From positions 1-37,021 of the forward strand of contig PZPG01000017.1 in the NCBI GenBank assembly GCA_003045995.1: DNA of 37,021 nucleotides, given 5' to 3'. The position numbers were made by a program, and so were the translations under genes. This document shows positions 1,416 to 22,979 of the stretch, in pieces. The notes under the pieces are model-generated. The model had not been told where the DNA came from, did not search any database, and saw only the letters and a program-made list of their open reading frames with translations. Numbering within the stretch: position 1 is the stretch's first letter; each line of letters opens with the position of its first letter. The DNA is from Bacteroidota bacterium. GTDB lineage: Bacteria; Bacteroidota; Rhodothermia; Balneolales; Balneolaceae.

Positions 1416-3986
1416 TCAGGAATTTGCGTTTGCTTCCTTAGCTTCCTCTCCAGGGGCTGCAGAATCAACAGCTTTTTCAGAAGGTTCTGCATCTACCCAG
1501 TCGAAGGTAAGTCCATCTCTGGATCGGTTCATTTTGATTTTTATGGTCGATCCTTCCGGGTGATCCTGCCCCAGAATCTCCTCTGCAACAGGGTCCTCGA
1601 TATATTTCTGGATAGCTCTTCGCAGTGGACGCGCCCCGTACTTTTGATCAAACCCTCGCTCGGCAATAAAATCAAGTGCCCCCTTGGTAACTTCAATTTG
1701 ATAACCGATCTCAGAGACCCGCTTAAAGAGGTCGGAAGCGATAAGTTCGATGATTTGATGGATATCCTCTTTGGCCAATGGTTTGAATGTGAGAACATCA
1801 TCAATTCGATTGAGAAATTCCGGATTGAATACTTTTTTGAGTGCCTCCTGTATGGTAGACTTCATTTTGGCATAGTCGAAGTCTGCATCTGATGAGGAGA
1901 ATCCAATTCCTTTGCCCATATTTCGAATATCACGGGCACCGATATTGGACGTCATTATCATAATGGTATTTCTAAAATCCACTTTCCGGCCAAGGCTATC
2001 CGTGAGTACACCATCATCGAGAACCTGAAGTAAAATGTTAAAGACATCGGGGTGTGCTTTCTCAATCTCATCCAGAAGAATCACACTGTAAGGTTTCCTC
2101 CGGACTTTTTCGGTAAGAATACCACCCTCTTCGTACCCAACATATCCGGGAGGTGCTCCTACCAGGCGTGAAACACTAAATTTCTCCATGTATTCGCTCA
2201 TATCTATTCGAATGAGTGCTTCCTCTTTGTCGAAAAGATATTTGGCAAGAACTTTGGCCATCTCTGTTTTTCCAACTCCGGTTGGGCCAAGAAAGATGAA
2301 GGAACCGATCGGGCGAGACGGGTCTTTTAGTCCGGCTCGTGTGCGCTGGATCGCACGTGTTAGTTTTTCGATCGCTTCGGACTGACCAATGATTTTTTTG
2401 TTCAGCTCCTCTTTCATTTTTAGCAGTTTCTGCCCCTCTTTCTGGCTGATTTTGTTTACCGGGACACCACTCATCATAGCTACAACTTCAGCAACATCAT
2501 CTGCAGTGACATCAAAAACGATCTTTTCCGATTCTTTTTCCCATTCCTGCTGCGAATGCTCAAGTTCTTGTATGAGGCGTTTTTCATTGTCGCGCAGACG
2601 GGCAGCCTCTTCGAACCGCTGTTTTTTTACCATCGTGTTTTTCTCGGCACCGATCTTTTCAATCTGCTCCTCGAGCTCAAGAATTGATTCCGGAACGGAG
2701 ATGTTCGAGAGGTGCACCCGCGCTCCTGCTTCGTCTAGCGCATCTATCGCTTTGTCCGGGAGAAAATGATCGGTAACATAACGGTCCGTGAGGCTCACAC
2801 AAGCTTGAATGGCATCTTCGGAGTACTTAACGCTGTGATGCTTTTCATACTTGTTTTTAATCTGCTCCAAAATTTCGAGTGTCTCTTCCGGAGAGGTCGG
2901 ATCCACCATGATTTTTTGGAACCGCCGTTCGAGAGCTCCGTCTTTTTCAATAAACTGACGGTATTCATTGAGTGTGGTGGCACCGATAGCCTGAATTTCA
3001 CCTCGGGCAAGCGCTGGCTTGAGCATGTTAGAGGCATCGAGGGATCCACTTGCGCCCCCAGCTCCCACGATGGTATGAAGTTCATCAATAAATAGAATGA
3101 CATTGTCGGTTTTTTCCAACTCGGTCATTACCGCTTTCATTCGCTCTTCGAACTGCCCCCTGTATTTTGTACCTGCAACCAACGCTGCCAGATCAAGTGC
3201 AATAACTCTCTTATCAAACAGAACTCTGGACACCTTCTTCTCTATGATTCGTGAAGCAAGACCTTCTGCAATCGCTGTTTTTCCCACACCTGGCTCGCCA
3301 ATCAGTACAGGGTTGTTCTTTTTCCGGCGACTTAGAACCTGGGCAACTCGCTCGATCTCTTTTTCACGGCCGATGATCGGATCCAGACGATCCTCTTCGG
3401 CCAGCTGCGTGAGATCCCTTCCAAACGTATCGAGAACTGGTGTTTTTGATTTTTCTTTTTTGGTTTCGGAACTGCTCCCTTTTGAGCTTCGGGAGGATGG
3501 CGTGTCACCAATGTCGGATTTAATCTCGCGGATGTTGTCCGTTCTTGTGCTGCCGGAAATAATCATATCAAGTTCTTCCCGTACTGCATCGTACGATACA
3601 TTGTACTGGTGTAAAATCTGAGCGGCAATATTCTCTTCATCTCGCAACAAGGAGAGCAAAAGATGCTCGGTACCGATCGTTTCACTCTTGTATAATTTGG
3701 CTTCGAGGTAGGTAATTCTGAGTACTTTCTCCGCCTGTTTTGTGAGAGGTATGTTACCAACCGTTACATTGCCACCTGTTCCGCGTACGGTGTCCTCGAT
3801 CGTTTTTTTAAGTTTGGACAGATCGCATTCCAAATTTTTTAAAATTCGGACAGCTACCCCATCGCCGAGGCGAACAATCCCAAGGATCAAGTGTTCGGTA
3901 CCGATGTAATCATGATTCAGACGTATTGCTTCTTCACGACTAAACTGAATAACGTCTCTGACTTTGCTGGAAAAATTTCCCTCCAT
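1416..3986 (-). CDS. clpC: ClpC-type AAA+ unfoldase, ATPase subunit of Clp protease
   Basis: This is an ATP-dependent unfoldase that feeds proteins to the ClpP peptidase in the cytoplasm. The 856-aa product has the full ClpC layout: two N-terminal Clp repeats (residues 1-145, with the paired IGTEHL motifs), a first AAA+ module with Walker A GEPGVGKT near residue 230 and Walker B VILFIDELH, a middle coiled-coil/UVR-like segment (KKQRFEEAARLRD, about residue 450-465), and a second AAA+ module with Walker A GPTGVGKT near residue 570 followed by the Clp C-terminal domain. Length is slightly above the usual 810-830 aa because of an acidic/alanine-rich tail. No clpP or mcsA/mcsB partner is adjacent. 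The call is secure. Confidence 0.97.
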   Translation of the reverse strand: MEGNFSSKVRDVIQFSREEAIRLNHDYIGTEHLILGIVRLGDGVAVRILKNLECDLSKLKKTIEDTVRGTGGNVTVGNIPLTKQAEKVLRITYLEAKLYKSETIGTEHLLLSLLRDEENIAAQILHQYNVSYDAVREELDMIISGSTRTDNIREIKSDIGDTPSSRSSKGSSSETKKEKSKTPVLDTFGRDLTQLAEEDRLDPIIGREKEIERVAQVLSRRKKNNPVLIGEPGVGKTAIAEGLASRIIEKKVSRVLFDKRVIALDLAALVAGTKYRGQFEERMKAVMTELEKTDNVILFIDELHTIVGAGGASGSLDASNMLKPALARGEIQAIGATTLNEYRQFIEKDGALERRFQKIMVDPTSPEETLEILEQIKNKYEKHHSVKYSEDAIQACVSLTDRYVTDHFLPDKAIDALDEAGARVHLSNISVPESILELEEQIEKIGAEKNTMVKKQRFEEAARLRDNEKRLIQELEHSQQEWEKESEKIVFDVTADDVAEVVAMMSGVPVNKISQKEGQKLLKMKEELNKKIIGQSEAIEKLTRAIQRTRAGLKDPSRPIGSFIFLGPTGVGKTEMAKVLAKYLFDKEEALIRIDMSEYMEKFSVSRLVGAPPGYVGYEEGGILTEKVRRKPYSVILLDEIEKAHPDVFNILLQVLDDGVLTDSLGRKVDFRNTIMIMTSNIGARDIRNMGKGIGFSSSDADFDYAKMKSTIQEALKKVFNPEFLNRIDDVLTFKPLAKEDIHQIIELIASDLFKRVSEIGYQIEVTKGALDFIAERGFDQKYGARPLRRAIQKYIEDPVAEEILGQDHPEGSTIKIKMNRSRDGLTFDWVDAEPSEKAVDSAAPGEEAKEANANS

Positions 3987-7807: not shown

Positions 7808-8536
7808 ATGAACGAAAAACCAACGAAACCTATGGAAAATCAAGTACAAATCTGGTGGCTTGGGCACTCAGCCTTCCGTCTTACTTCACCGAACGGCCAT
7901 GTGATCTATGTGGATCCGTTTCTGAGTCAAAACCCCGCTGCACGTGAAGAGGATAAACATCCCGGTCAAGCGGATTTTATTTTGCTGACGCACGGGCATG
8001 AGGATCATGTGGGGGATACACTGGAGATTGCAAAAGAGACTGGCTGTAAAGTAGTCGCACAGGTGGAGTTGTGCGGTCTTTTGAAAAAGCATGGACTACC
8101 GGCGGATCAGGCTGTAGAATTTAACAAGGGCGGAACGGTGCATTTCGATGATTTTTCGGTAACGCTTGTGAGTGCGAATCACAGCTCTTCGTTTGGCGGT
8201 GAGTATGCGGGGGAAGCAGGCGGGCTGGTGATCTCTTTTGACGAGGATATCTGTTTTTACCACATGGGAGATACCAATATTTTTGCAGATCTGGAGTTGT
8301 ACGGTGAGCTGTATGAACCCACTGTGGTGGCTGTGCCGATTGGAGATACCTATACAATGGGGCCTCAGGAGGCTGCATTATGTGTGGAGATGCTGGGGGC
8401 AGAGGTGGCCATTCCGATGCATTATGGAACATTTCCGGTGCTGACGGGAGACCCAGACGAGTTCCGTGAGTTTACGGAAGAGTATTGTGATACGCGGGTG
8501 GTGATCGCAGAACCTGGAGAGAAGGTGTGGGGTTGA
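7808..8536 (+). CDS. UPF0173 metal-dependent hydrolase, metallo-beta-lactamase fold
   Basis: The 242-aa product is a small metallo-beta-lactamase-fold hydrolase of the UPF0173 type. It begins with WWLGHSAFRL, then VDPFLSQNP, followed by the metal motif THGHEDHVGD near residues 60-69. Further metal-site residues lie in ANHSSSFGGEYAGEAGG, YHMGDTNIFADL (Asp bridging the metals) and IPMHYGTFP near the C terminus. It is a cytoplasmic protein with no signal peptide. The physiological substrate of this family is unknown. An in-frame Met ten codons downstream, just before the family's usual first residues, is an equally possible start. Confidence 0.92.
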   Translation: MNEKPTKPMENQVQIWWLGHSAFRLTSPNGHVIYVDPFLSQNPAAREEDKHPGQADFILLTHGHEDHVGDTLEIAKETGCKVVAQVELCGLLKKHGLPADQAVEFNKGGTVHFDDFSVTLVSANHSSSFGGEYAGEAGGLVISFDEDICFYHMGDTNIFADLELYGELYEPTVVAVPIGDTYTMGPQEAALCVEMLGAEVAIPMHYGTFPVLTGDPDEFREFTEEYCDTRVVIAEPGEKVWG

Positions 8537-8612
8537 TTGTTGCTGTGATACTGTCTCCCGGGATATGCAGGCGTGTTAGGATTACGTAAGTGTGTTACAA
8601 TAAGCAGGTATT

Positions 8613-9185
8613 TTATGATACGTAGGCATTAAGAATGAAGAAGATCATGACGCCGGTGACTGAAACATACAGCCAGATGGGAAATGTCCACTTCGATACT
8701 TTCCGATGGGTGCTGAATTGTCCGGAAAACGCGTAGTAGTAACTGGTTAGCACAAGAGGAACTACGCTTGCTGAGAGAATGATGTGAGAAATCAGAATGG
8801 TAAAATACACCGGCCGAATCCATCCCTGTCCAGGGAATGGAGTATGGCCAACAAAGTTGTGATATACCAGATAGCTGACCAAGAACAGAGAGGAGGTAAT
8901 AAAGGCTGTAAGCATCAGTTTCATGTGGCGGATGTAGTTTTTCTGCCGGATTGCTACGTATCCGCTTAGAATGAGAACGGTGCTTGTGCTGTTCAGCAGA
9001 GCATTCAGCGCGGGAAGCTGATCGACCCAGGTGGCTGTGGTTTCAGCGCCTTCCTTGAAGTAGAGAAGCCAAATAAGAAAGAGAAATGCCAGTGTACTGA
9101 TCGTGAGGATGAGCAAGATTGCTTTTGGGACACTAATCTCTTTCAAAAATTGAACGGTGATTTGATCTGCAATATCTTTGTTCAT
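8613..9185 (-). CDS. DUF420-family membrane protein, probable oxidase assembly factor
   Basis: The 190-aa product has five hydrophobic segments (about residues 20-42, 57-75, 91-113, 125-147, 165-187) and conserved-looking His residues in or next to them (for example SYLVYHNFVGH and ILISHIILSAS), the pattern of DUF420 proteins. Family members are commonly found beside cytochrome oxidase genes, and a staphylococcal member (CtaM) is needed for an active aa3 oxidase, so a role in heme-copper oxidase maturation is likely. Here it is divergent from the act-cox operon across a 327-base gap, which supports that link. The exact reaction is not known. Confidence 0.82.
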   Translation of the reverse strand: MNKDIADQITVQFLKEISVPKAILLILTISTLAFLFLIWLLYFKEGAETTATWVDQLPALNALLNSTSTVLILSGYVAIRQKNYIRHMKLMLTAFITSSLFLVSYLVYHNFVGHTPFPGQGWIRPVYFTILISHIILSASVVPLVLTSYYYAFSGQFSTHRKVSKWTFPIWLYVSVTGVMIFFILNAYVS

Positions 9186-9512: not shown

Positions 9513-10157
9513 ATGTCACAGCTTTTTCCTGAATGGGCCAATCAAGTGCCAAGACGTTTACTGGTTGGATCGATTGTGCTTGTAAATACGATTGTTTTTA
9601 CAGTTTGGTACTTCTTCTCTCCTGAATTCACTCAAGTTGGGTACATGCCGGAACAACCTGTTCCTTTCAGTCACCAGATTCATGTAGGCAAGTTGGGAAT
9701 GGACTGCCAATATTGCCATACACAGGTATATGATTCGCGACATGCCAACATTCCTGCAACGCAGACCTGTATGAACTGTCACAATCAAATTAAGACAGAC
9801 AGCGAAAAGTTGGCTCTTGTTCGTGAAAGTTGGGAATCAGGTGAGCCGATCGAATGGTATAAAGTCCATATGCTGCCTGATTATGCCTATTTCAATCACG
9901 CAGCTCATGTGAACGTTGGTGTTGGCTGTGAGTCCTGCCATGGACGCATTGACCGAATGGAGGTTGTTTATCAGGCTGAGCCGCTAAGTATGGGCTGGTG
10001 TTTGGACTGCCATCGTGAACCGGAAAAATATGTTCGCCCGGTTGAGGAGGTGACAACCATGGGATATGTTGCTGAAAACCAGATTGAACTGGGGCTGCAA
10101 TTGGTTGCAAAACAAAATATTGATGCGCCTGTCTATTGCCAGGCATGTCACTACTAA
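9513..10157 (+). CDS. actA: Alternative complex III subunit A, pentaheme cytochrome c
   Basis: This is a membrane-anchored multiheme cytochrome that carries electrons within alternative complex III. The 214-aa product has one N-terminal transmembrane segment (about residues 16-35) and five CXXCH heme sites, at residues 65-69, 86-90, 139-143, 163-167 and 209-213; the last ends one residue before the stop. Five hemes is the known number for ActA. Extra His residues (FSHQIH, YFNHAAH) are the expected sixth ligands, as in class III cytochromes. It is the first gene of the act-cox operon. The ATG at 9513 puts the membrane anchor close to the N terminus and is well supported. Confidence 0.95.
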   Translation: MSQLFPEWANQVPRRLLVGSIVLVNTIVFTVWYFFSPEFTQVGYMPEQPVPFSHQIHVGKLGMDCQYCHTQVYDSRHANIPATQTCMNCHNQIKTDSEKLALVRESWESGEPIEWYKVHMLPDYAYFNHAAHVNVGVGCESCHGRIDRMEVVYQAEPLSMGWCLDCHREPEKYVRPVEEVTTMGYVAENQIELGLQLVAKQNIDAPVYCQACHY

Positions 10158-10296
10158 CCACTTGAATGATTCATGTATTGACAAACTTGTTGAATGACGA
10201 GAACGGCAAAACCCGATTTTTGACTCATCAAGCATCAATATTGCATAGTTTATACCTTCACTTTCTTAAAATTACGTAAAGCAGATTCGAAATCGT

Positions 10297-13200
10297 ATGG
10301 CTGAATCACAAAACGAAACAACCTACTGGAAAAGCCTGAATGAGCTTGCTCAGAACCGGGAGTATCAAAAATTTGTTGAGAGAGAGTTTCCGGAAGATGC
10401 GACGGAAATGACAGATCAGGTGTCCCGAAGAAGTTTCTTGCGGGTCATGGGAGCGTCCATCGCCCTTGCAGGTTTTGCATCATGCCGAAAACCAATGCAA
10501 AAAGTGATTCCTTACACGAAGCAGCCTGAAGATCTAATTATTGGTGTTCCAAACTATTATGCAACCTCAATGCCGTTTCAAGATACGGTAACCGGACTTG
10601 TGGTAGAAAATAATGAGGGCAGACCGACTAAAGTGGAGGGAAACGAGGCACATCCGGCAAGTGGCGGTCGGACTTCAATCTATCATCAGGCCTCTGTTTT
10701 GGAAATGTACGATCCGGACCGGTCCCGATCCCCTAGACTGAACGGGCAAAAGTCTGACATGGCGCAATTTGAAGCGTTTGCCGCAGAGCACTTTTCAGAT
10801 ACAGGTAGATCGATCCTTGTTTTGAGTGAATCAAACTCCTCACCCACATATCGTCGATTGAAAGACCGGTTTGCAAGACGATTTCGGAACTCTACTTGGA
10901 TCACATACGAGGCATTTGGTGAGTATAATGTTCTGGAGGGAAGCAGAATTGCGTTTGGAAGCAAACTTCGCCCGGTGATGCATTTTGACAAGGCAGACAG
11001 AGTTGTGTCTTTTGGGGACGACTTTATGAACCCTGCAGAGCATAAGAATAGTGTTGAGAATGCTGGCAAAATCACTGCACGGCGTAAAGTTCGCTCTACG
11101 GAAGACGATATGTCCCGAGTTTATGTGATCGAAAGCAACTACTCGGTAACCGGGGGGTATGCGGACCATCGTATCCGATTGAAGCGATCCGAAATAGAAG
11201 CGTTTATGGGTGCCGTTGCTGCAGCTCTTTCAGGTCAGTTGCGTGGTCTGAGTGCATATTCCGGAGTGCAAAACGCATTTACCGATCATGAGTGGGTACA
11301 GAAAATTGCGGCAGACCTTTTGGAGAATAGGTCCAATAGTCTGCTTACCGCTGGGCGCGATCTCTCCCCGGAGGCTCATGCGACTGTGGCCGCAATGAAT
11401 GCAGCACTTGGAGCTATTGGTACAACCGTAACATATCATCGTGTTCCTCATTTGGATGATGAGGCTGGGCCAGAAGGTTTGAAATCTGCCACAGATGCAA
11501 TGCGCAACGGAGAGTATGACACGGTTGTACTTGTCGGAGGGAATCCTGCGTTCACTGCCCCGTCCGATCTCAACTTTTCTGAGGCACTTCGGGGTGCTGG
11601 AACCACCATTCACCTCTCCAATTATGTGGATGAGACCTCAAGGGCTTGCTCCTGGCATGTAAACCGTGCTCACTATCTAGAATCCTGGGGTGACGGACTC
11701 TCCTACACGGGAATTGCATCGGTGATTCAACCGCAAATCTTGCCATTGTTTGATGGTGTTAGCGAGATTGAATTTCTACATATATTGACAAACGGTGTGA
11801 AAGGTAATGGCCATGACCTCGTGAAAGAGACCTGGCGTTCACAAGTTTCGGCTCCGTTCGAACGATCATGGGAAAAAGTACTCCACGATGGTCTGTCAGA
11901 GGGGGATGGTTTTCCAGCTGCAAATGTTCGCCTTACCGGCAACTTTCAGAGTTCGGTGTCCGGGTTTGGCCAGGATAAAAAACTGGGAATGGAAATTGTA
12001 ATCAAAGCGGATCCGAAATTGTTTGATGGTCGCTTTGCCAATATTGGATGGCTTATGGAGCTTCCGGACCCCATGACCAAAATTACGTGGGATAATGTCG
12101 CTCTCATGAGCCCTGCTACCGCGAGAAAATTGGGTATTCGGGATACGCGGAAGTTCAATTCTGATGCTGTTCCTGTGGTAACAATTACAACTGAAACAGG
12201 ATCATTGGATATTCCTGCATGGCCCGAGCCGGGGCACGCTGATGATTCCATCACACTTTACACTGGGTATGGAAGAACGCAAACCGGACGAGTTGCTGAT
12301 GGTGTTGGAGTGAATGTGTATCCGCTTCGAACGACCGAGGCGCTTGATTATCAGCCAGGAACAGTAGTGAATGCAGGGCGAACATACGATGTAGCTTGTG
12401 TTCAGGACCACCACTCTTTGGAAGGACGGGATATGATACGAACAGCAACGCTGGATGAGTATCGTAAGAAGCCGGATTTCGCCACTTATAAATCGGTGCA
12501 TGGATATGAAGTTCCCGGCATCAAAGAGGCAAAAGCGGAGGGAGACGACAAAGGCCCGATATCACTCTTTACAGAGACGTATGGATCCGACGACCAGCCT
12601 CAATGGGGTATGGCGATCGACCTGAATGCCTGTTTCGGTTGCGGGGTTTGTACCATTGCATGCCAGGCGGAGAACAATATTCCTGTAATTGGAAAGCGGG
12701 AGGTGGCCAGAAGAAGGATCATGCATTGGATCCGAACTGACAGGTATTATGAAGGGGATGAGGATAATCCAACGGTATATCATCAGCCTGTTCCCTGCAT
12801 GCATTGTGAGCTTGCACCCTGTGAGCAGGTCTGTCCGGTTGCGGCTACGGTACACAGTGAAGATGGAATGAACCAGATGACCTATAATCGCTGTATCGGA
12901 ACGAGATATTGTGCTAACAACTGTCCGTTTAAGGTTCGTCGGTTCAATTTCTTTAACTATGCGAAAGAGTATCTAACCACCGGGGATGACCCTGAAATTA
13001 TTCAAATGGCGATGAACCCCGATGTGACGGTACGATTCCGGGGAGTAATGGAAAAATGCACCTATTGTGTTCAAAGAGTGAACCGCGCGAAAAGTGCATC
13101 GAGGCTCGCTACAGGTTCGCGGAAACCGGTGGATGGAGCGGTGCAGACTGCCTGCCAGCAGGCCTGTCCGGCAAATGCGATTAGTTTCGGGGACTTGACA

Positions 13201-13320
13201 GACCGGCAGAGTAAGGTAGCACAGGATAAAATGAATGAGCGGAACTACGTAATGCTGGAAGAGCTTAATGTACGGCCAAGAACATCGTACCTGGCAAAAC
13301 TAACACACCCCAACGGATAG
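10297..13320 (+). CDS. actB: Alternative complex III subunit B, molybdopterin-like/iron-sulfur protein
   Basis: This is the large extracytoplasmic subunit of the quinol-oxidising complex. The 1007-aa product starts with a conserved ActB leader and a twin-arginine signal (SRRSFLR, residues 43-49) followed by a hydrophobic run ending in Cys63, so it may also be lipid-anchored. Residues about 70-730 form a molybdopterin-oxidoreductase-like domain, which in known ActB proteins has no molybdenum cofactor. The C-terminal third is a ferredoxin-like domain with four cysteine clusters: CFGCGVCTIAC, CMHCELAPCEQVC, CIGTRYCANNC and CTYCVQRV with a later CQQAC. Together these bind three or four iron-sulfur clusters. 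A 139-base gap follows actA. Confidence 0.95.
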   Translation: MAESQNETTYWKSLNELAQNREYQKFVEREFPEDATEMTDQVSRRSFLRVMGASIALAGFASCRKPMQKVIPYTKQPEDLIIGVPNYYATSMPFQDTVTGLVVENNEGRPTKVEGNEAHPASGGRTSIYHQASVLEMYDPDRSRSPRLNGQKSDMAQFEAFAAEHFSDTGRSILVLSESNSSPTYRRLKDRFARRFRNSTWITYEAFGEYNVLEGSRIAFGSKLRPVMHFDKADRVVSFGDDFMNPAEHKNSVENAGKITARRKVRSTEDDMSRVYVIESNYSVTGGYADHRIRLKRSEIEAFMGAVAAALSGQLRGLSAYSGVQNAFTDHEWVQKIAADLLENRSNSLLTAGRDLSPEAHATVAAMNAALGAIGTTVTYHRVPHLDDEAGPEGLKSATDAMRNGEYDTVVLVGGNPAFTAPSDLNFSEALRGAGTTIHLSNYVDETSRACSWHVNRAHYLESWGDGLSYTGIASVIQPQILPLFDGVSEIEFLHILTNGVKGNGHDLVKETWRSQVSAPFERSWEKVLHDGLSEGDGFPAANVRLTGNFQSSVSGFGQDKKLGMEIVIKADPKLFDGRFANIGWLMELPDPMTKITWDNVALMSPATARKLGIRDTRKFNSDAVPVVTITTETGSLDIPAWPEPGHADDSITLYTGYGRTQTGRVADGVGVNVYPLRTTEALDYQPGTVVNAGRTYDVACVQDHHSLEGRDMIRTATLDEYRKKPDFATYKSVHGYEVPGIKEAKAEGDDKGPISLFTETYGSDDQPQWGMAIDLNACFGCGVCTIACQAENNIPVIGKREVARRRIMHWIRTDRYYEGDEDNPTVYHQPVPCMHCELAPCEQVCPVAATVHSEDGMNQMTYNRCIGTRYCANNCPFKVRRFNFFNYAKEYLTTGDDPEIIQMAMNPDVTVRFRGVMEKCTYCVQRVNRAKSASRLATGSRKPVDGAVQTACQQACPANAISFGDLTDRQSKVAQDKMNERNYVMLEELNVRPRTSYLAKLTHPNG

Positions 13321-13441: not shown

Positions 13442-14866
13442 ATGAGTAAAACGTACGAATACGTTCCTGAACCAGCGCTGGTTAAGGGAAACCACGATTT
13501 TGGCAGTATTACAAGGCTGGTAACAGACATTAACCTGCGTCCGACTCCCAAAGCATGGTACATAGTGTTTGGTATCTCCAATCTGCTACTGTTTGTGCTT
13601 CTTGCGTCGATCGGATATCTGATTTGGCAAGGAACCGGAATTTGGGGTCTAAACTCTACTGTAAATTGGGGATGGGCCATTATCAACTTTGTGTGGTGGG
13701 TTGGGATTGGACACGCGGGGACTCTGATCTCAGCTATTTTGTTTCTGTTTCGTCAAAACTGGAGAACCGCTATTAACCGGTTTGCAGAGGCGATGACTAT
13801 CTTTGCTGTGATGTGTGCTGGAATCTTCCCTGCCATTCACGTTGGACGGATTTGGGTAATCTACTGGGTTTTCCCGGTGCCCAATTCCATGGCGATGTGG
13901 CCCAATTTTAATAGCCCATTGCTGTGGGATGTGTTTGCCATCTCCACCTACCTTACTGTTTCTTTCCTCTTTTGGTATGTGGGACTTGTGCCCGATTTTG
14001 CAACCCTGCGCGATCGCATCAAGAGTAAATTTGGGAAGATCGCATATGGTATTGCAGCTTTAGGGTGGAGAGGCAGTAACCGACACTGGTGGAACTACGA
14101 AAAAGCATACATGATTTTGGCAGGATTGGCGACCCCACTGGTTCTTTCAGTTCATACCATCGTTTCATTTGACTTTGCTGTTTCTGTGATCCCTGGATGG
14201 CACACCACCATTTTCCCCCCCTACTTTGTTGCGGGTGCTGTGTTTTCCGGATTTGCGATGGTATTAACACTCATGATTATTGTACGAAAGATCTACGGGT
14301 TGGAAGAGATCATGACGGACGATCACATTGAGAAGATGAATATCATCATACTTGTCACTGGGTCTATGGTTGGATTTGCTTACCTCATGGAATTCTTTAT
14401 CGCCTGGTATGGCCAAGTTGAGTATGAGAAGGCGATCTTTATCCTCAGGGCAACAGGGCCCTATGCTTGGGCATACTGGATCATGATTACATGTAACGTA
14501 CTTTCACCTCAATTTTTCTGGTCCAAGAAACTACGAAGGCACGTTGGTTTCACATTCTTTATCTCTATCGTTGTAAATATTGGAATGTGGTTCGAACGCT
14601 TTGTGATCACTGTCACATCTCTCTCCACTGATTTTCTTCCATCGTCCTGGGGATACTATTCTCCAACCATGTGGGATATGCTTACCTACCTTGGCACGTT
14701 TGGTCTTTTTGGCACCTTCTTTCTCCTATTTTTGAGGTTCTTACCCATGATTGCTGTTGCTGAATTGAAGGGGGCTATGCCACAGGCAGATCCACACAAT
14801 TATAATGATGAGGGGGAATACGCGCCTCATGAAGAGATCATTCCAGAACCCAAACGATCCTACTAA
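13442..14866 (+). CDS. actC: Alternative complex III subunit C, NrfD-like quinol-oxidising membrane protein
   Basis: This integral membrane subunit of the NrfD/PsrC family contains the quinol site of the complex. The 474-aa product has about ten hydrophobic segments spread evenly from residue 38 to 455. Typical ActC blocks are visible, including [17 protein letters not shown] near residue 90 and [14 protein letters not shown] near residue 130, whose His and acidic residues line the quinone site in the family. A periplasmic or cytoplasmic tail rich in acidic residues ends the protein. It precedes actD by 11 bases. Length fits known ActC proteins. Confidence 0.95.
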
Positions 14867-14877
14867 ACGAACAGAGT

Positions 14878-15423
14878 ATGTCTACTGAATCTAAATCTTT
14901 ATATGGTATCTTGGCCGAAGTCAAGAATCCTAAAAAGCTGATCGATATCGCATCTGCCGTGGAGCGTGGTGGATATCGAAAATTTGACACGTTCAGCCCA
15001 TTCCCAATCCATGGCATGGATAAAGCGATGAGTCTAAAAAAATCCAAGTTGGGATGGATCGTCCTGGGACATGGGATTGCGGGCCTCATCGGTGGTTTTT
15101 CGATGATCTATTTTATGTCAGTTGCAGATTATCCGCTGAATATCAGTGGCAAACCTTTCATGAACATCCCTGCCTGGGTGCCGATTCTATTCGAGCTCAC
15201 AGTCCTATTATCTGCTTTTGGCGCCGTTTTTGGCATGTTTTTCCTGAATGGTCTACCAAGACTGAACCATCCCCTTTTCAACTCGGAAAACTTTAAAAAA
15301 GCGACCGATAATGGTTTTTTTATCTGTATTGAGTCGGAGGATCCAAAATTTGACCGCACTGAGGTGCAAAAACTATTGGAAGACCACGGTGCGGAAAATA
15401 TAGAGGAGATCTATCCGGACTGA
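14878..15423 (+). CDS. actD: Alternative complex III subunit D, DUF3341 membrane protein
   Basis: This small structural subunit of the complex has no cofactor. The 181-aa product shows the ActD/DUF3341 signature: a soluble N-terminal part with YGILAEVKNPKKLIDIA and YRKFDTFSPFPIHGMDKAM, then two transmembrane helices (about residues 58-82 and 98-122), then a C-terminal soluble tail with the FDRTEVQKLLEDHGAENIEE block. The gene follows actC by 11 bases, so the two are almost certainly cotranscribed and made together. The start and length match the family. Confidence 0.95.
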   Translation: MSTESKSLYGILAEVKNPKKLIDIASAVERGGYRKFDTFSPFPIHGMDKAMSLKKSKLGWIVLGHGIAGLIGGFSMIYFMSVADYPLNISGKPFMNIPAWVPILFELTVLLSAFGAVFGMFFLNGLPRLNHPLFNSENFKKATDNGFFICIESEDPKFDRTEVQKLLEDHGAENIEEIYPD

Positions 15424-15470
15424 AACGAAAAGTCAGACAGACAAAGAATTTGAACGAAATCCAATTACTA

Positions 15471-16460
15471 ATGAGATCCAGGCTATCCAATTTACTACTT
15501 GTAGTGTTCGCGTTGCTTGCATTAAGCTCTTGTCGCGGAATGAAATCCGAGAAACCACCGATCATGCCACAGCAAAACATGGCGTTCCAGGATCGTTTTA
15601 ATGCTCAAGAGGAGAATACTTTTTTTGCGGATGGGCGCGCCATGCGTACACCCGTTGAGGGAACGGTGGCTCTTGGGAAAATGCGCGGTGATAATGTTGG
15701 ATTTTTTGAGGGATTGGATGAATCCGGAAACTATCTGGTGGAGTCTCCTGTGGAATGGACGCGGGACCTTTTATATCGTGGCAAGGACCGTTATGACATC
15801 TTCTGTTCTGTTTGTCATGGGGGTACCGGGGATGGTCGGGGCATCATTATGACCGGGCAATATGGCTACGTCCCTGCACCAACCTTTCATAGTGATCGGA
15901 TACGCGGATTACCTGATGGAGAGATCTACTCTGCAATTGCGAACGGAGTCAGAAATATGCCATCCTACGCAACTCAAATACCCGTAGAAGATCGATGGGC
16001 CATCGTTGCATACGTACGCGCGTTGCAGCAGAGCCAGAATGTACCTGAAGATGAGATGCAACAATATGATGTAGACCTTGCGTCCCTGAAAGAGGAGTTC
16101 CGTATTGCGAAAGAAGAAGCGGAAGCTCTTGCTGCAGCGAGAGCTGCGAGTCAACCGGTCGAAGAGGTTTCGGCAAGCAGAGGCGAAGGACTCTACACGA
16201 TGTATGCATGTCAGACCTGTCACTCCGTGGATGGCCGTGTTTTAGTTGGTCCTTCATTTCAAAATCTATTTGGTAGCACACGTGAGTTTGAAGATGGAAC
16301 CACTGCAATGGCAGACGAGGATTATCTGTATGAATCTATAACCATGCCCGCTGCAAAAATTTCAAAAGGCTATATCAATGCGATGCCAGCCTATGATTAT
16401 CTCACGGATGGTGAGGTCAATTCACTGATCGAGTTTATAAAAACTCATTCTGAAAATTAA
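15471..16460 (+). CDS. actE: Alternative complex III subunit E, di-heme cytochrome c lipoprotein
   Basis: This is the electron-exit subunit of alternative complex III. From the ATG at 15471 the product is 329 aa with a lipoprotein signal (LLALSSC; Cys21 is the likely lipid anchor). A longer frame opens at a TTG at 15450, but the ATG gives a normal-length signal. The first cytochrome domain has CSVCH (residues 112-116) with Met163 as probable axial ligand, as in standard mono-heme ActE. A charged, Ala/Glu-rich linker (about residues 195-235) leads to a second cytochrome domain with CQTCH (247-251) and Met305. That second domain closely resembles the C-terminal cytochrome domain of CoxB in this operon. 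The usual ActE has one heme, so this is an extended form. Confidence 0.92.
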   Translation: MRSRLSNLLLVVFALLALSSCRGMKSEKPPIMPQQNMAFQDRFNAQEENTFFADGRAMRTPVEGTVALGKMRGDNVGFFEGLDESGNYLVESPVEWTRDLLYRGKDRYDIFCSVCHGGTGDGRGIIMTGQYGYVPAPTFHSDRIRGLPDGEIYSAIANGVRNMPSYATQIPVEDRWAIVAYVRALQQSQNVPEDEMQQYDVDLASLKEEFRIAKEEAEALAAARAASQPVEEVSASRGEGLYTMYACQTCHSVDGRVLVGPSFQNLFGSTREFEDGTTAMADEDYLYESITMPAAKISKGYINAMPAYDYLTDGEVNSLIEFIKTHSEN

Positions 16461-16478
16461 TACTGAGAATACAGAATC

Positions 16479-17678
16479 ATGGATTCACACAGCCCAAAAC
16501 TTACCGACAGCGTATCACTCCCGGAACATTTGGATGCAACCAAAACTTTCATAGGTATCGGGGTTGTTGGCCTGATTGCCAGTTTTGTCGGTTTTTTCCT
16601 GGATAGTAAACAATTCTTTTTCTCCTATCTCACGAGCTTTACTTTCTTTTCGAGTATTGCCCTCGCATCGTTGGTTTTACTGATGATCCACCATGTGACC
16701 AAATCCTCCTGGGGGACCGTCATTCGTAGAATTCCTGAAGCGTTTGTATCTAAACTCTGGGTCTGGGCACTGTTTTTTCTTCCAGTTATTTTCGGCATTA
16801 CATCTTTATATAAGTGGACCAATGAAGCGTATGTTGCCAACGATCCGATTCTTCTTGGGAAACAAGCATATTTGAATGATATCTTTTTTATCGTTAGACA
16901 GGTGCTCTATTTCTCTATTTGGGGGTATTTTGGGTATAGACTGCATAAAGTATCTGTTGAAATGGATCGTACCAATGACTGGGGACTCACCATTTTGCTT
17001 CGGAAAATCAGCGCTCCAGGTATTCCCATCTTTGCCCTTACCGTTGCATTTGCAAGTTTCGATTGGCTGATGTCTCTCGACGCACATTGGTTTTCTACCA
17101 TGTTCGGTGTTTATTTCTTTGCTATGAGCTTTCAAGCCATCTTTCCCGTGCTGATTCTGTTTACTTTCTGGTTCCATAGCAAGGGGCTCTTGAAAAACAC
17201 CATTCGGCAGTCCCATATTTATGACATGGGCGCCTGGTTTTTTGGTTTTACAGTGTTCTATGCGTATATCGCATTCAGCCAGTTCTTACTGATCTATTAC
17301 GCAAATATCCCCGAGGAGACCCTCTGGTTCTATCATCGAATGGAGGGGTCCTGGTCCTTCATTACCTATTTACTGCTTGCCGGACGCTTTGCTCTGCCCT
17401 TTGTTATCTTTTTGAACCGAGACCGAAAGCACAGCCGTACACTGCTTGGTATTGTATCGGTTCTTATTCTGGCTTTGCATTTCGTAGAATTACACTGGAT
17501 CGTGATGCCTACCCTTCATCATCACGGCATGAGCCTGAGCTGGCTTGATATCACAACCTTTTTCGGCCTCGGTGGGGTATTTATGGGCCTTTTCTTCATG
17601 ATGTTGAAAAAAAATAATCTGGTACCGGTACATGACCCGGGACTGAAGCCTTCGCTGGCCAAAGAATATCATCAATAA
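16479..17678 (+). CDS. actF: Alternative complex III subunit F, NrfD-like membrane protein
   Basis: This is the second large membrane subunit of the complex, related to ActC and the NrfD family. The 399-aa product carries about ten transmembrane segments. Visible family blocks include AFASFDWLMSLDAHWFSTMFG near residue 190 and FVELHWIVMPTLHHHG near residue 330. Like ActC it binds no heme. In known complexes ActF packs against ActC and may form a proton path; this is family knowledge, not something the sequence proves. It starts 18 bases after actE and ends 19 bases before the next ORF, in the same operon. Confidence 0.95.
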   Translation: MDSHSPKLTDSVSLPEHLDATKTFIGIGVVGLIASFVGFFLDSKQFFFSYLTSFTFFSSIALASLVLLMIHHVTKSSWGTVIRRIPEAFVSKLWVWALFFLPVIFGITSLYKWTNEAYVANDPILLGKQAYLNDIFFIVRQVLYFSIWGYFGYRLHKVSVEMDRTNDWGLTILLRKISAPGIPIFALTVAFASFDWLMSLDAHWFSTMFGVYFFAMSFQAIFPVLILFTFWFHSKGLLKNTIRQSHIYDMGAWFFGFTVFYAYIAFSQFLLIYYANIPEETLWFYHRMEGSWSFITYLLLAGRFALPFVIFLNRDRKHSRTLLGIVSVLILALHFVELHWIVMPTLHHHGMSLSWLDITTFFGLGGVFMGLFFMMLKKNNLVPVHDPGLKPSLAKEYHQ

Positions 17679-17697: not shown

Positions 17698-18234
17698 ATG
17701 AGCAAAGATCCAAATTCCTACACACTCGACGAAAAAACGAGAATTTGCCTTGAGGCATCATCCGGTGATGAGAAATCTCTACAGGATACTTTAGATAAAT
17801 ATGAGATCGATGGGGAAACTCTGAAGCGATGGATGCAGGAAACCGGGATTCGAGCGGATACAGATAGTGGCTCCGATCCAAGTTCATCATCACCCTACGA
17901 AACAGTTACAGTCGATATGGATGACGAAACTGCAGAAAGCACTCGGTTCGGCGCGTCCTACGATCGTTTAAATTATAAAAGACTCACCTTTTGGGCTTTC
18001 TTTGGGTCTGCGGTGATTCTGGTCATGATCCTCTCCATCATTTTTATTTACGAGTTTTCATTTTCCGGTATGAACGATCGCCAGTCTGTTCAGAACAACT
18101 ACGTTGATATTCAGGAGCTGCAAACGAAAGACGCTGAACGGCTCGGAAGCTTTGGGATTGTTGATCTCGATAATGGCATCTACCACGTCCCCGTTGATAG
18201 TGTAATCAATCGAATGACAAGTACTGCGAAATAA
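17698..18234 (+). CDS. Unnamed single-span membrane protein of the act-cox operon
   Basis: I do not recognise a named family. The 178-aa product has a charged, helical N-terminal part (about residues 8-52) that reads like a helix-turn-helix: DEKTRICLEA, a short turn, then DGETLKRWMQETGI. A Ser/Asp-rich linker follows, then one transmembrane helix (about residues 99-121) and a short extracytoplasmic tail ending in LGSFGIVDLDNGIYHVPVDSV. That tail resembles the short V-D-x-x-x-G-x-x-x-I-P-V/I-D motif I recall from small proteins encoded beside bacterial cox genes. It lies 19 bases after actF and before sco, so it is probably part of, or assembles, the ACIII-oxidase unit. DNA binding is only a possibility. 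Confidence 0.75.
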   Translation: MSKDPNSYTLDEKTRICLEASSGDEKSLQDTLDKYEIDGETLKRWMQETGIRADTDSGSDPSSSSPYETVTVDMDDETAESTRFGASYDRLNYKRLTFWAFFGSAVILVMILSIIFIYEFSFSGMNDRQSVQNNYVDIQELQTKDAERLGSFGIVDLDNGIYHVPVDSVINRMTSTAK

Positions 18235-18447
18235 ACTGCTTTAATAGCACCTTGTTTCTACGATTTTAGTATAAAGAGAGAAACTAGAACAAGGAAACAA
18301 AACTTTCTGCGTTTATATCTGACGATGAATTCAGTACAAAAGCGGAATCACATGCATTATACTATGGGCACAATTGTCCGGAGTTTACTACTAGTACATC
18401 TCGGGTGCTTTAAGTGTTGCAGCATCACTTATATACAAAGAAGTGTA

Positions 18448-19251
18448 ATGTTCGTTTGTGTGTTTCTCATTTTCACGCTGTTGATTCCCGCCGCCAATGC
18501 ACAACTTAATCAGGCAAGGCCAGAACTCACTCAAGGGGTTGAAGTGGAGGAAAAGTTGGGAGAAAAAATTCCCCTCGACCTAAAGTTTGTCGATGCGGAT
18601 GGTGATTCAGTGCTGTTAGGGGATCTTTTCGTAGACGGAAAACCCGTACTCCTCAACCCGCTATACTATGATTGCCCCGTTTTGTGCGGAGTGGTGGTTG
18701 ATGCCGTTTTGGCTGTAGTTGATGAACTTGTCTGGAGCCCAGGGGAGGATTATACCGTCATTTCATACAGCATCGACCCCACTGAAACTCCGGTTCAGGC
18801 TACACAGACTCGAACAAGAATCTTGAGTCAACTGGAACGCCCGGATGTGCAGAATGGCTGGCATTTTCTCACAGGCAATGAATCGAGTATACGTAAGCTC
18901 GCGGATGCAACCGGATTTGCCTATCGGTATGATGAACTAAGCGGCGAGTATATCCATATCGCATCTATACAACTGATCAGCCCGGAAGGTGTTATTACCC
19001 GGTACCTGTATGGGTTGGAGTTTCGGGAGTTTGACCTCAGGAATGCTCTTTATGAAGCGGCAGATGGAACGATTGGAAATACGATGGAAAAGCTCCTTCT
19101 CTATTGCTTTACCTACGATCCCTCATCCAACAGTTATGTGCCAGTTGCAATCAACATAATGAAGATTGGAGGGTTGGTAACTCTTATTTTTCTAGGTATA
19201 TTCCTAGCGTTTTTATGGGGTCGAGAGAAAGCCTTAAAATCATCTTTTTAA
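18448..19251 (+). CDS. SCO1/SenC copper chaperone for the oxidase CuA site
   Basis: This thioredoxin-fold membrane-anchored copper chaperone delivers or reduces copper for the CuA centre of subunit II. The key motif is CPVLC (in YYDCPVLCGVVVDAVL), the CxxxC copper ligands; the distal His ligand of SCO proteins probably lies in the WHFLTGNE block. A C-terminal hydrophobic helix adds a second anchor. The frame is open from an ATG at 18325 (308 aa), but that would put 41 extra residues before the signal peptide. The ATG at 18448 begins directly with a standard signal (FVCVFLIFTLLIPAANA), so I prefer it (267 aa). It sits immediately upstream of coxB, as expected. Confidence 0.9.
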   Translation: MFVCVFLIFTLLIPAANAQLNQARPELTQGVEVEEKLGEKIPLDLKFVDADGDSVLLGDLFVDGKPVLLNPLYYDCPVLCGVVVDAVLAVVDELVWSPGEDYTVISYSIDPTETPVQATQTRTRILSQLERPDVQNGWHFLTGNESSIRKLADATGFAYRYDELSGEYIHIASIQLISPEGVITRYLYGLEFREFDLRNALYEAADGTIGNTMEKLLLYCFTYDPSSNSYVPVAINIMKIGGLVTLIFLGIFLAFLWGREKALKSSF

Positions 19252-19273: not shown

Positions 19274-20215
19274 ATGGACAAAGTTCTCGAGTTTTTGCTT
19301 CCTCCTGCGAAAAGTACCATAGCAGGTCAAGTCGACGGGTTGTTTATCTTTATACTTGCGGTGAGCGCCGTACTACTCGTTGGAATCAGCTTCGCAATCA
19401 TCTATTTTTCCTGGAAATACAAACGACGATCCGAGCAGGACACAACCCCAGTCATCACTCACAATACGAAATTGGAAGTGGCCTGGTCTGTAATTCCGCT
19501 CATTTTGGTGATGATTGTATTTGGATGGGGTTTTACTGGCTACATGAATATGCGAACCGTACCAACAGATGCCTATGAAATCCGCGTCGTTGGGAAGAGT
19601 TGGCTTTGGGAATTTCACTATGAAAACGGGACTGTAAGTGTTAACGAACTGCATGTTCCAGCCAATCGTCCCGTAAATTTGGTTATGAGTTCGAATGATG
19701 TCATTCACTCCTTTTATATTCCCGATTATAGAGTGAAAAGAGATGTACTTCCGAATCGGTACTCTAATGTATGGTTTGAGGCTATGGAAACGGGTGAATC
19801 TGTCATTTTTTGTACGGAATATTGCGGAAGAGCTCATTCAAATATGATTGCAACGGTAACAGCCCATTCAGAGTCGGATTTCGAGAACTGGCTTGCCACT
19901 GCCAATGTGATCGATGAAAGTCTATCTCCTGTTGAACTTGGTAAAGAACTTATCGCTAAAAATGGCTGTAATGCCTGCCACTCTGTGGATGGAAGTCGTA
20001 TGGTCGGTCCCTCCTACAAAGGATCCTGGATGGCTGAAAGAGAGCTAGAAGATGGATCCGTTGTAACGGTAGATGCCAATTATTTGCGAGAAAGTATTCT
20101 GGAACCCAATGCTAAGATCGGTGCGGGATATGATCCTGTGATGCCATCCTACCAGGGGCTCCTAAGCGACCGGGAGATCGACGCAATTATTGAGTACATC
20201 AAAACGATAGATTAA
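19274..20215 (+). CDS. coxB: Cytochrome c oxidase subunit II with fused cytochrome c (caa3 type)
   Basis: This electron-entry subunit of the oxygen reductase passes electrons from its own heme c to CuA. The 313-aa product has two transmembrane helices (about residues 22-47 and 68-91), a cupredoxin domain with the complete CuA ligand set (His145, Cys180, Glu182, Cys184, His188, Met191), and a C-terminal cytochrome c domain with CNACH (residues 232-236) and Met290 as likely axial ligand. The fusion defines a caa3 oxidase. No lipobox is seen at the N terminus. It starts 22 bases after sco and ends 14 bases before coxA. Confidence 0.97.
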   Translation: MDKVLEFLLPPAKSTIAGQVDGLFIFILAVSAVLLVGISFAIIYFSWKYKRRSEQDTTPVITHNTKLEVAWSVIPLILVMIVFGWGFTGYMNMRTVPTDAYEIRVVGKSWLWEFHYENGTVSVNELHVPANRPVNLVMSSNDVIHSFYIPDYRVKRDVLPNRYSNVWFEAMETGESVIFCTEYCGRAHSNMIATVTAHSESDFENWLATANVIDESLSPVELGKELIAKNGCNACHSVDGSRMVGPSYKGSWMAERELEDGSVVTVDANYLRESILEPNAKIGAGYDPVMPSYQGLLSDREIDAIIEYIKTID

Positions 20216-20229
20216 CCATCGAATAAATT

Positions 20230-21969
20230 ATGTCTCACATGGAAACATCCGCTCTTAAACGCCTTCAGGTACAACGATTCAAACCAGAGGAGAATCCGGA
20301 AATACACTATTTAAATTCCGAGAGAGGCCTCTGGTCCTGGCTATCAACGGTCGACCACAAGCGTATCGGTCTGATGTATCTTGCATCAATTGCCATCTTT
20401 TTCTTTATCGGTGGGGTTTTGGCTCTGGTACTTCGAACAGAACTTCTCTCTCCTGCCCAGTCTTTCCTGGATGCAGATGTGTACAACCAGGTCTTTACGT
20501 TGCACGGTGCCATCATGATTTTCTTTTTCCTGGTACCCTCGGTTCCGGCGGCACTAGGCAATTTTATTCTTCCGATTCAGCTTGGAGCAAAAGATGTGGC
20601 ATTTCCACGCTTGAACCTCGCAAGTTTCTACATCTACACAATCGGTACTGTTTTCACACTTGTAGCAATCATTACAGGAGCAGTCGATACAGGATGGACA
20701 TTCTACACTCCGTACAGTACTGAAACAGGAACCAATGTACTTTTGATGACATTGGGAATCTTTATATTAGGTTTCTCATCCATTCTTACCGGTGTCAATT
20801 TCATTGTAACGATTCATAAAATGAGAGCACCCGGCATGACCTGGAGTAAGTTGCCTCTGAATGTATGGTCGCTCTATGCAACCAGCATCATTCAGGTACT
20901 CGCAACCCCCGTATTGGCGATCACTCTTTTACTGTTGGTTATGGAACGGGCTCTTGGTATCGGTATTTTTGATCCGGCACTTGGCGGGGATCCTGTTCTG
21001 TTTCAGCATTTTTTCTGGTTCTATTCTCATCCTGCTGTATACATCATGATTGTTCCCGGGTTTGGGGTAATTAGTGAAGTGATCTCCACGTTTTCCCGAA
21101 AGCACATATTTGGTTACTGGGCGATTGCTCTATCCTCTCTCGCCATTGCATTCATTGGGTTTCTTGTGTGGGGCCATCACATGTTTACCGCCGGACAGTC
21201 CTCCCTGGCCAGTATGGTGTTCTCATTTCTGACCTTCCTGGTAGGGATTCCAACTGGGATTAAGATCTTTAACTGGCTTGCAACGATGTATAAAGGTAGC
21301 ATCGACCTGAAAGCTCCAATGCTGTACGCCATGGTGTTCCTTTTCCTGTTTACCATCGGTGGTTTTACCGGCATTATGTTGGGTGCGCTCTCTGTGGATA
21401 TCCACCTCCATGATACCTACTTCGTGGTTGCTCACTTTCATTATGTTATGATGGGTGGTATGGTGATGGCATTGCTGGCTGGGTTGCACTACTGGTGGCC
21501 GAAAATGTTCGGTAAAATGTACAGCGAGGTGTATGCAAGAATCTCTTGTGCCCTAATTTTTATTGGGTTTAATCTCGCTTTCCTGCCTCAATTTGTGATG
21601 GGAGCCCAAGGGATGCCAAGACGATACTTTAATTACATTGATCAGTTCCAACCGTTTCATCAGCTCTCGACCATGGGAGCGTATATCATGGGCGTCGGTT
21701 TCGTAATTATGTTTTTCTATCTGCTCCATTCGTTGGTTCGTGGTGAAAAAGCGGCCTCTAATCCATGGGGTAGCCGTGCTCTTGAGTGGCAAACTACCTC
21801 CCCTGCTGCACCTCATAATTTCGAGCATACACCTGTAGTCATCCATGGGCCCTACGATTACCATAAGCCAATGTCAGAGTTCCAACTCGGCATTGCCCAT
21901 GGGCATCATGGTGAATCCCATCAACCCGAAACACTAGAAACTGTAGCTGAAACGGGAACGCGACCCTGA
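20230..21969 (+). CDS. coxA: Cytochrome c oxidase subunit I, A2-type
   Basis: This is the catalytic subunit that reduces oxygen to water and pumps protons. The 579-aa product has twelve transmembrane segments and all metal ligands: His92 and His404 for heme a, His402 for heme a3, and His267, His316 and His317 for CuB, with Tyr271 as the cross-linked tyrosine. K-channel Lys345 is present. At the D-channel end it has YSHPAV (residues 265-270) in place of the GHPEV of mitochondrial-type enzymes, so the gating Glu is absent and the Tyr-Ser pair is present. This is the A2 subfamily described from Rhodothermus marinus caa3. A His-rich soluble tail (GHHGESHQP) closes the protein. Confidence 0.98.
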
Positions 21970-21981
21970 ATTTAGAAACTT

Positions 21982-22638
21982 ATGGCACATTCTACAGCAT
22001 CTTCCAGTGCACCGGCACATCTTCAGCATCACTTTGTCGACTCCGATCAGCAGTTTGAGTCATCAAAAATGGGCATGTGGATCTTCCTCGTAACAGAGAT
22101 CCTCTTTTTCGGCGGACTATTTGCTGCCTACATTGTTTATCGGGCTTGGTATCCCGATCTGTATGTACAGGCATCTACCCAACTGGATACATTCTGGGGA
22201 GCCGTAAATACTGCTGTATTGATCGGAAGTTCATTAACTGTGGCAATGGCGATTCGATCTGCTCAGCTAAATCAAATAAAGGGCCTGATCATCAATCTAT
22301 ACATTACGATTGGACTGGCATTTACGTTTATGGTGATTAAGTATTTCGAATATGTTCATAAGTTCGAAAAGGGAATCTTCCCGGGACAGTATTATACCTA
22401 TGAGGGCATTGCTCACGAAAAAGCCAATATCTTTTTTAGCATCTACTACATGATGACGGGACTTCACGGGCTTCATGTGATTATCGGAATTGGTTTGATG
22501 ATCTGGTTGCTTGTGAAAGCAAAAAAAGGGGCTTTTAGTGCCGAATACTACACACCGGTAGAGATTACAGGTCTGTATTGGCACCTTGTGGATGTGATTT
22601 GGATCTTCTTGTTCCCCCTGTTGTACTTAATTGACTAA
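21982..22638 (+). CDS. coxC: Cytochrome c oxidase subunit III
   Basis: This is a structural membrane subunit of the oxidase with no metal centre. The 218-aa product has five transmembrane helices, as usual for the bacterial short form, and family blocks SSKMGMWIFLVTEILFFGG near residue 27, a Glu-containing helix, TGLHGLHVIIGIGLM near residue 157 and YWHLVDVIWIFLFPLLYL at the C terminus. The N-terminal tail is His/Ser-rich. It starts 12 bases after coxA, within the operon. Confidence 0.97.
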   Translation: MAHSTASSSAPAHLQHHFVDSDQQFESSKMGMWIFLVTEILFFGGLFAAYIVYRAWYPDLYVQASTQLDTFWGAVNTAVLIGSSLTVAMAIRSAQLNQIKGLIINLYITIGLAFTFMVIKYFEYVHKFEKGIFPGQYYTYEGIAHEKANIFFSIYYMMTGLHGLHVIIGIGLMIWLLVKAKKGAFSAEYYTPVEITGLYWHLVDVIWIFLFPLLYLID

Positions 22639-22676
22639 GTTATTCCTATTCAAAATTACCTGAAGAATCTGACACT

Positions 22677-22979
22677 ATGAGCGGACATCATATTTCATCA
22701 GCTAAATTTTTGTGGGGCATCGGATTTGCCCTCTTTGTACTTACATTTATTACCGTTGCAGTTACGTGGATGCATATTCCTGCTCCTTGGAATGTTGTGG
22801 TTGCTATTGGATTGGCTGCTATAAAAGCGACTATTGTGGCTGCATTTTTTATGAATTTGTATTGGGATAGTAAATACAATCTGATGTTGCTTGTGATGTC
22901 ATTCGTATTCTTTTTTCTTATGATTGGCATTACGCTGCTGGACACGCTATTCCGAAATGATCCGGTACCGGCATTTTAA
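22677..22979 (+). CDS. coxD: Cytochrome c oxidase subunit IV (prokaryotic type)
   Basis: This is a small accessory membrane subunit of the oxidase. The 100-aa product has three hydrophobic helices (about residues 9-30, 36-60 and 66-88) and the family pattern of a Lys in the second helix (GLAAIKATIVAAFFMNLYWDSK). It follows coxC by 38 bases, is the last gene of the operon and is followed by a strong terminator at 23058. Confidence 0.93.
   Translation: MSGHHISSAKFLWGIGFALFVLTFITVAVTWMHIPAPWNVVVAIGLAAIKATIVAAFFMNLYWDSKYNLMLLVMSFVFFFLMIGITLLDTLFRNDPVPAF

Follow-up and report, generated by a model that had tools for sequence, protein, structure and literature searches.

A two-heme ActE with a caa3-type cytochrome c domain in the alternative complex III operon of Balneolaceae

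The act-cox operon and its ActE

The window, by which we mean the whole stretch of 37,021 nucleotides that was analysed, holds a complete operon for alternative complex III (ACIII) and a caa3 oxidase: actA, actB, actC, actD, actE, actF, a probable actG, sco, coxB, coxA, coxC and coxD. The genes and the features of ActE and CoxB are as follows, with the basis of the assignment in parentheses.

9513–10157, plus strand: actA, pentaheme (five CXXCH motifs, no N-terminal sixth-heme domain)
10297–13320, plus strand: actB (matched at the same place in related operons)
13442–14866, plus strand: actC (related operons)
14878–15423, plus strand: actD (PF11821)
15471–16460, plus strand: actE, two-heme, 329 aa plus stop, read from an ATG, with TTG at 15450 as a possible alternative start
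15522–15533, plus strand: lipobox L18-S-S-C21 of ActE, a lipid anchor as proposed for R. marinus ActE (PMC5928083)
15804–15818, plus strand: ActE heme motif 1, C112SVCH, the canonical ActE heme
15957–15959, plus strand: M163 of ActE, likely axial ligand of heme 1
16038–16166, plus strand: ActE linker, acidic and Ala/Glu-rich, with a helix predicted at residues 203–227
16167–16457, plus strand: second cytochrome c domain of ActE, CoxB (caa3) type (Pfam, alignment and predicted fold)
16209–16223, plus strand: ActE heme motif 2, C247QTCH
16383–16385, plus strand: M305 of ActE, probable sixth ligand of the second heme
16479–17678, plus strand: actF (related operons)
17698–18234, plus strand: small gene, probably actG (position and a hydrophobic, membrane-like segment)
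18325–19251, plus strand: sco, CuA assembly (Pfam)
19274–20215, plus strand: coxB, caa3 subunit II (CuA domain and C-terminal cytochrome c domain)
19904–20212, plus strand: cytochrome c domain of CoxB (heme motif at 19967–19981)
20230–22979, plus strand: coxA, coxC and coxD (related operons)

The order actABCDEF-x-sco-coxBACD is contiguous in every complete Balneolales locus that we parsed, so the donor and acceptor complexes are made together. The small gene between actF and sco keeps its place across Balneolales and matches no Pfam or NCBIfam family. Divergent from the operon, on the minus strand at 8613–9185, lies a gene for a membrane protein of the DUF420 family, whose members have links to the assembly of oxidases.

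ActE is encoded between actD and actF, and its first domain matches R. marinus ActE (6F0K_E) with an E value of 1e-65. Pfam matches two stretches of the protein, Cytochrome_CBB3 at residues 103–182 and Cytochrom_C at residues 236–326. Among 26 aligned ActE proteins, the lipobox cysteine C21, the heme 1 residues C112, C115, H116 and M163, and the heme 2 residues C247, C250 and H251 are all invariant; M305 is conserved in the second domain of ActE and across all groups of CoxB c domains. The linker between the two domains varies in sequence, while its length stays at 40–44 aa in 22 relatives. A preliminary description of the locus, made from the letters of the window, had named the second heme motif (CQTCH) and M305 and had noted a charged linker before the second domain; the translated reading frame agrees on all three. 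ActE is usually recognised as a mono-heme protein, yet a second CXXCH domain is present here and throughout Balneolaceae. Since all other features of ActE are found, we read the protein as a two-heme variant of ActE. Because 86 genomes conserve the open frame, an assembly artefact is excluded as the source of the two-domain protein.

The second domain is of the CoxB type

The preliminary description had also claimed, by eye, that the extra domain resembles the cytochrome c domain of CoxB, and had proposed aligning the two. The claim is borne out by that alignment and by the fold. When compared with the CoxB c domain of the same operon, ActE domain 2 is identical at 41 of 89 positions (46%; 86 bits, E = 2e-28), and compared with the c domain of R. 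marinus caa3 (1W2L) it scores 103 bits (E = 1.4e-28). This structure is the top PDB match of the domain both by sequence and by fold: the AlphaFold model of domain 2, which is of good confidence (block pLDDT 76–91), fits it to 0.8 Å with a TM score of 0.93 and 60% identity. Domain 1 was modelled poorly (shallow alignment, pTM 0.37), and only domain 2 of the model was used.

Across relatives, ActE domain 2 has a median score of 220 (47% identity) against the CoxB c domains of Balneolaceae, and median scores of 200–220 against CoxB c domains class-wide. The corresponding values are 57 (29% identity) against R. marinus-type soluble cytochromes and 37 (18% identity) against ActE domain 1. Judging from these scores, the likeness between ActE domain 2 and CoxB far exceeds what a common heme fold would explain.

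Origin of the second domain

Rooted on ActE domain 1, a tree joins the second domains of Balneolaceae ActE with CoxB domains and a few dehydrogenase modules in one group (support 95/86), outside which the R. marinus-type soluble cytochromes fall. In line with the preliminary description, the domain does not group with these free cytochromes, either in this tree or by score, and an origin from the R. marinus-type soluble cytochrome c is disfavoured on both counts. With long branches removed, the Balneolaceae domains form a single clade (98/95); in a test of the single clade in which soluble cytochromes were the sole outgroup, a position next to the root was allowed (p = 0.55).

Within the CoxB-type modules the placement is looser. 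A grouping with Balneolaceae CoxB is absent from the tree, though the data do not reject it (p = 0.37), and alternative placements, including one next to the root, are not rejected by the tree tests, all over about 97 columns. Because an alignment of this length is too short, the exact donor of the domain cannot be named. A genome's own CoxB is not the best match of ActE domain 2 in most genomes, ranking anywhere from 1st to 37th among 44 CoxB domains. The preliminary description had spoken of a duplicated module; what stands of this is the CoxB type, whereas a recent or genome-specific copy is rejected, as the genome's own CoxB is not the nearest relative. Given the scores, the trees and these ranks, the domain is a CoxB-type module acquired before Balneolaceae radiated rather than a fresh copy.

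The fusion of a neighbouring cytochrome gene to actE was also considered and set aside: among the one-heme operons parsed, none has a separate cytochrome gene of this type between actE and actF. Separately, two Balneolaceae genomes (G011 and G012) have a small cytochrome c gene of CoxB-like module type directly between actE and actF (locus L124, about 10181–10560, and locus L125, about 8074–8540; frames of 125 and 155 aa).

In the tree, the modules closest to ActE domain 2 are those of secreted PQQ-dehydrogenase-like proteins of some relatives (98/92; 97 columns). These proteins, of 930–962 aa, end in the same CoxB-type module (loci L126, L127, L128, L129 and L141). Their placement would suit a reading in which the extra domain is an entry point, taking electrons from periplasmic dehydrogenases that bear the same C-terminal module and passing them through ActE to caa3. 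We consider this improbable: such dehydrogenases were found in 4 of the 12 Balneolaceae searched and are absent from the source genome, whereas the ActE domain is present in all Balneolaceae with an ActE, and the nearest-group placement is itself based on those 97 columns.

Distribution of the two-heme ActE

The full two-domain length was found in 86 of the 86 Balneolaceae genomes with an ActE. The preliminary description had regarded the second heme as unusual; this does not hold within the lineage, and the two-heme ActE is ordinary inside Balneolaceae while being unusual against other ACIII. In other Balneolales families (f2, f3 and f5) and in the Rhodothermales listed, ActE matches stop near residue 200, and the loci parsed from these groups encode an ActE with one heme. 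In an evenly drawn sample of 296 Bacteroidota, the matches listed, which left out some of the weaker ones, included no further two-heme ActE. Long ActE-matching frames do occur in other Bacteroidota; those whose loci we read are ActD-ActE fusions with one heme.

One genome of another family, G108, also has a two-heme ActE (45% identity). In a tree of ActB, ActC and CoxA it adjoins Balneolaceae with a support of 91, and its family is probably sister to Balneolaceae. Because this tree joins the two, a single gain of the domain on their shared stem would be the simplest history; the domain tree neither recovers nor rejects a single origin (p = 0.37).

That R. marinus thrives without a second domain could suggest that the fusion has no special function and was retained by chance. 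We give this very little credence, as the domain has been kept in all 86 genomes over deep divergence, with its ligands and the length of its tether conserved.

HiPIP and soluble cytochrome c

The ACIII of R. marinus is able to reduce HiPIP, a soluble cytochrome c, or caa3 directly (PMC5928083). Genome G168 encodes proteins that match the R. marinus structures of cytochrome c (3CP5) and HiPIP (3H31), and both R. marinus carriers are therefore traceable in our survey, which was confined to these two. HiPIP, an iron-sulfur protein that acts as a diffusible carrier, is present in 31 of the 36 genomes from one-heme Balneolales families but in 3 of 92 Balneolaceae; Pfam and an alignment built from HiPIPs of the lineage itself were both used for this check. 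Among the weak HiPIP matches in Balneolaceae, three are real proteins and the remainder look like matches to signal peptides. In G108, the two-heme ActE and HiPIP occur together, as expected of an intermediate.

The R. marinus-type cytochrome c is unevenly distributed in either group, being present in 57 of about 92 Balneolaceae and 20 of 36 one-heme genomes (the search covered 126 of 129 genomes, so that up to three absences may be genomes left unsearched). Loss of this cytochrome does not track the fusion; only HiPIP does. Neither carrier was found in 23 of 64 near-complete two-heme Balneolaceae, the source genome among them, versus 2 of 36 one-heme genomes. The source genome (2.37 Mb assembly, 97% complete) yielded no HiPIP and no R. 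marinus-type cytochrome c. It also yielded no small PF00034 or PF13442 protein, the matches to these families being ActE, CoxB, a diheme protein of 294 aa and a protein of 490 aa.

The preliminary description had suggested an electron wire between ACIII and caa3 without a separate soluble cytochrome c. Such a wire is consistent with the almost complete loss of HiPIP from the family and with a source genome in which both carriers are absent. The part of the claim that dispenses with a soluble cytochrome applies to this genome and to about a third of its near-complete relatives, but not to the Balneolaceae that keep the R. marinus-type protein. The loss of HiPIP is in effect one event on one branch, and for this reason its correlation with the fusion is not independent evidence.

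A full-text search, with subscription papers outside its reach, found no report of a two-heme ActE or of ACIII in Balneola. The parts and the principle are known; what is new is the placement of the domain on ActE and the family-wide correlation with HiPIP loss.

A proposed path from ActE to caa3

How electrons reach the oxidase from complex III, by way of a carrier that diffuses or along a fixed wire, is an open issue of respiratory organisation. In Balneolaceae, a domain has been gained and HiPIP lost across a whole family, with one genome retaining both, and this natural change makes the wiring testable in ordinary aerobic bacteria. Our preferred reading, to which we assign a probability of roughly 0.6, is that ActE is a lipid-anchored protein and hands electrons directly to caa3 from its tethered second heme. 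Balneolaceae ActE may be viewed as the usual lipid-anchored one-heme ActE, extended by an acidic, probably helical tether of 40–44 residues and a CoxB-type c domain. Electrons from menaquinol would pass through ActB and the five hemes of ActA to heme 1 of ActE, and from there to the tethered second heme, which would swing or dock onto caa3. The docking site could be the CoxB c domain, or CuA directly through the surface that ActE domain 2 shares with that domain. The tether would take over from HiPIP, the diffusible carrier of sister lineages, and some Balneolaceae have neither R. marinus-type carrier.

Several observations are consistent with this direct path. ActE has two c domains with conserved heme and methionine ligands, the second being of the CoxB type, a kind already in service at the CuA site of caa3, and the length of the tether is constant. 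In R. marinus, ActE is the direct donor to caa3, and a 20 Å map puts it beside the CoxB c domain (PMC5928083). Taken together, the tethered CoxB-type domain and the almost complete loss of HiPIP from Balneolaceae suggest that the tether probably hard-wires the two complexes. Other considerations weigh against it. Direct docking between ActE domain 2 and the CoxB c domain is not favoured because both are strongly acidic (mean charges of −9.7 and −10.1, respectively). The extra domain is not strictly needed either, since CoxB keeps a c domain of its own. In F. johnsoniae, ActE can be deleted with oxidase activity kept (PMC8552683), and the main path therefore does not run through ActE in every case; ActA in that species bears its own extra c domain.

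In a second reading, ActE is a branch point: heme 1 would feed CoxB as in R. marinus, and heme 2 would send electrons off to another periplasmic acceptor, which could be a soluble cytochrome, a reductase or a second oxidase. For F. johnsoniae, whose oxidase can spare the protein, the electron path has been proposed to divide at ActE. In Balneolaceae, a CoxB that already has its own c domain would suit such a split, as would the many genomes that keep the R. marinus-type soluble cytochrome c. A branch point is harder to reconcile with a second domain that is of the caa3 type, unlike soluble cytochromes, that is always encoded within the caa3 operon, and that also occurs where the R. marinus-type cytochrome is lacking, as in the source genome. 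We regard a branch point as unlikely, though it is the rival we take most seriously.

A purely structural role, in which the domain clamps ACIII to caa3 while its heme lies off the main electron path, would be in keeping with the known supercomplexes of ACIII with caa3 or aa3 and with the conserved length of the tether. However, the cysteines and the histidine that bind the heme are invariant, and Met305 is conserved as well. A clamp alone would need neither, and we think it a poor candidate.

Comparison with other systems

Among the closest known counterparts are the ACIII (6F0K) and caa3 (1W2L) of R. marinus, which share with the operon described here its gene order, a pentaheme ActA, and homologous ActE domain 1 and CoxB c domains. 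R. marinus ActE has a single heme and 209 aa, and the organism retains both HiPIP and soluble cytochrome c; the source genome, in contrast, has the extra CoxB-type heme domain on ActE and lacks both carriers.

The nearest precedents for the extra domain are found in Flavobacterium ActA and in the diheme QcrC of actinobacteria. The ACIII-aa3 supercomplex of F. johnsoniae (6BTM) likewise has an extra tethered c domain on the ACIII side, with a proposed direct shuttle to the oxidase. There, the domain is mobile, N-terminal on ActA, and replaces the c domain that the oxidase lacks, whereas in Balneolaceae a domain of the CoxB type is attached to ActE, alongside an oxidase that has retained its c domain. 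The pattern of F. johnsoniae, in which ActA has a sixth heme and CoxB lacks a c domain, is absent here: ActA has its five CXXCH motifs and CoxB its c domain. Residues 53–123 of 6btm_A resemble the R. marinus-type soluble cytochrome c (compared with locus L139), so the module tethered in Flavobacterium is of another kind than that of Balneolaceae.

In the actinobacterial bcc-aa3 supercomplex, the diheme cytochrome cc (QcrC) links the complexes and replaces small cytochromes c (PMC8361435). As in Balneolaceae, the complex III side carries a diheme cytochrome; the actinobacterial complex, unlike ACIII, is of the bc1 type, and QcrC has a helix membrane anchor and an independent origin. ActE domain 1 is weakly similar to QcrC.

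It is tempting to speculate that Balneolaceae wired ACIII to caa3 by adding to ActE a cytochrome c of the caa3 type, that this made HiPIP dispensable, and that it happened independently of the solutions found by Flavobacterium with ActA and by actinobacteria with QcrC. G108, which has both the fused domain and HiPIP, would then be the intermediate expected of HiPIP replacement. We put this fuller history at a little less than an even chance.

The extra cytochrome c of ACIII-oxidase systems is attached differently by lineage, to CoxB, ActA or ActE or as a separate anchored protein. The ActD-ActE fusions of other Bacteroidota (loci L164–L171, L173, L177 and L180) resemble the case described here in that the heme domain of ActE has been rearranged within the act-cox operon; they differ in that ActE has one heme and CoxB is without a c domain. 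Most of these fusion operons have a separate anchored one-heme cytochrome c of about 308–338 aa between actF and sco. In one Rhodothermales genome (G149; locus L068, about 2468–3242, minus strand), yet another subunit bears an extra cytochrome c domain: CoxD, the oxidase subunit IV, ends in one that is of a different type.
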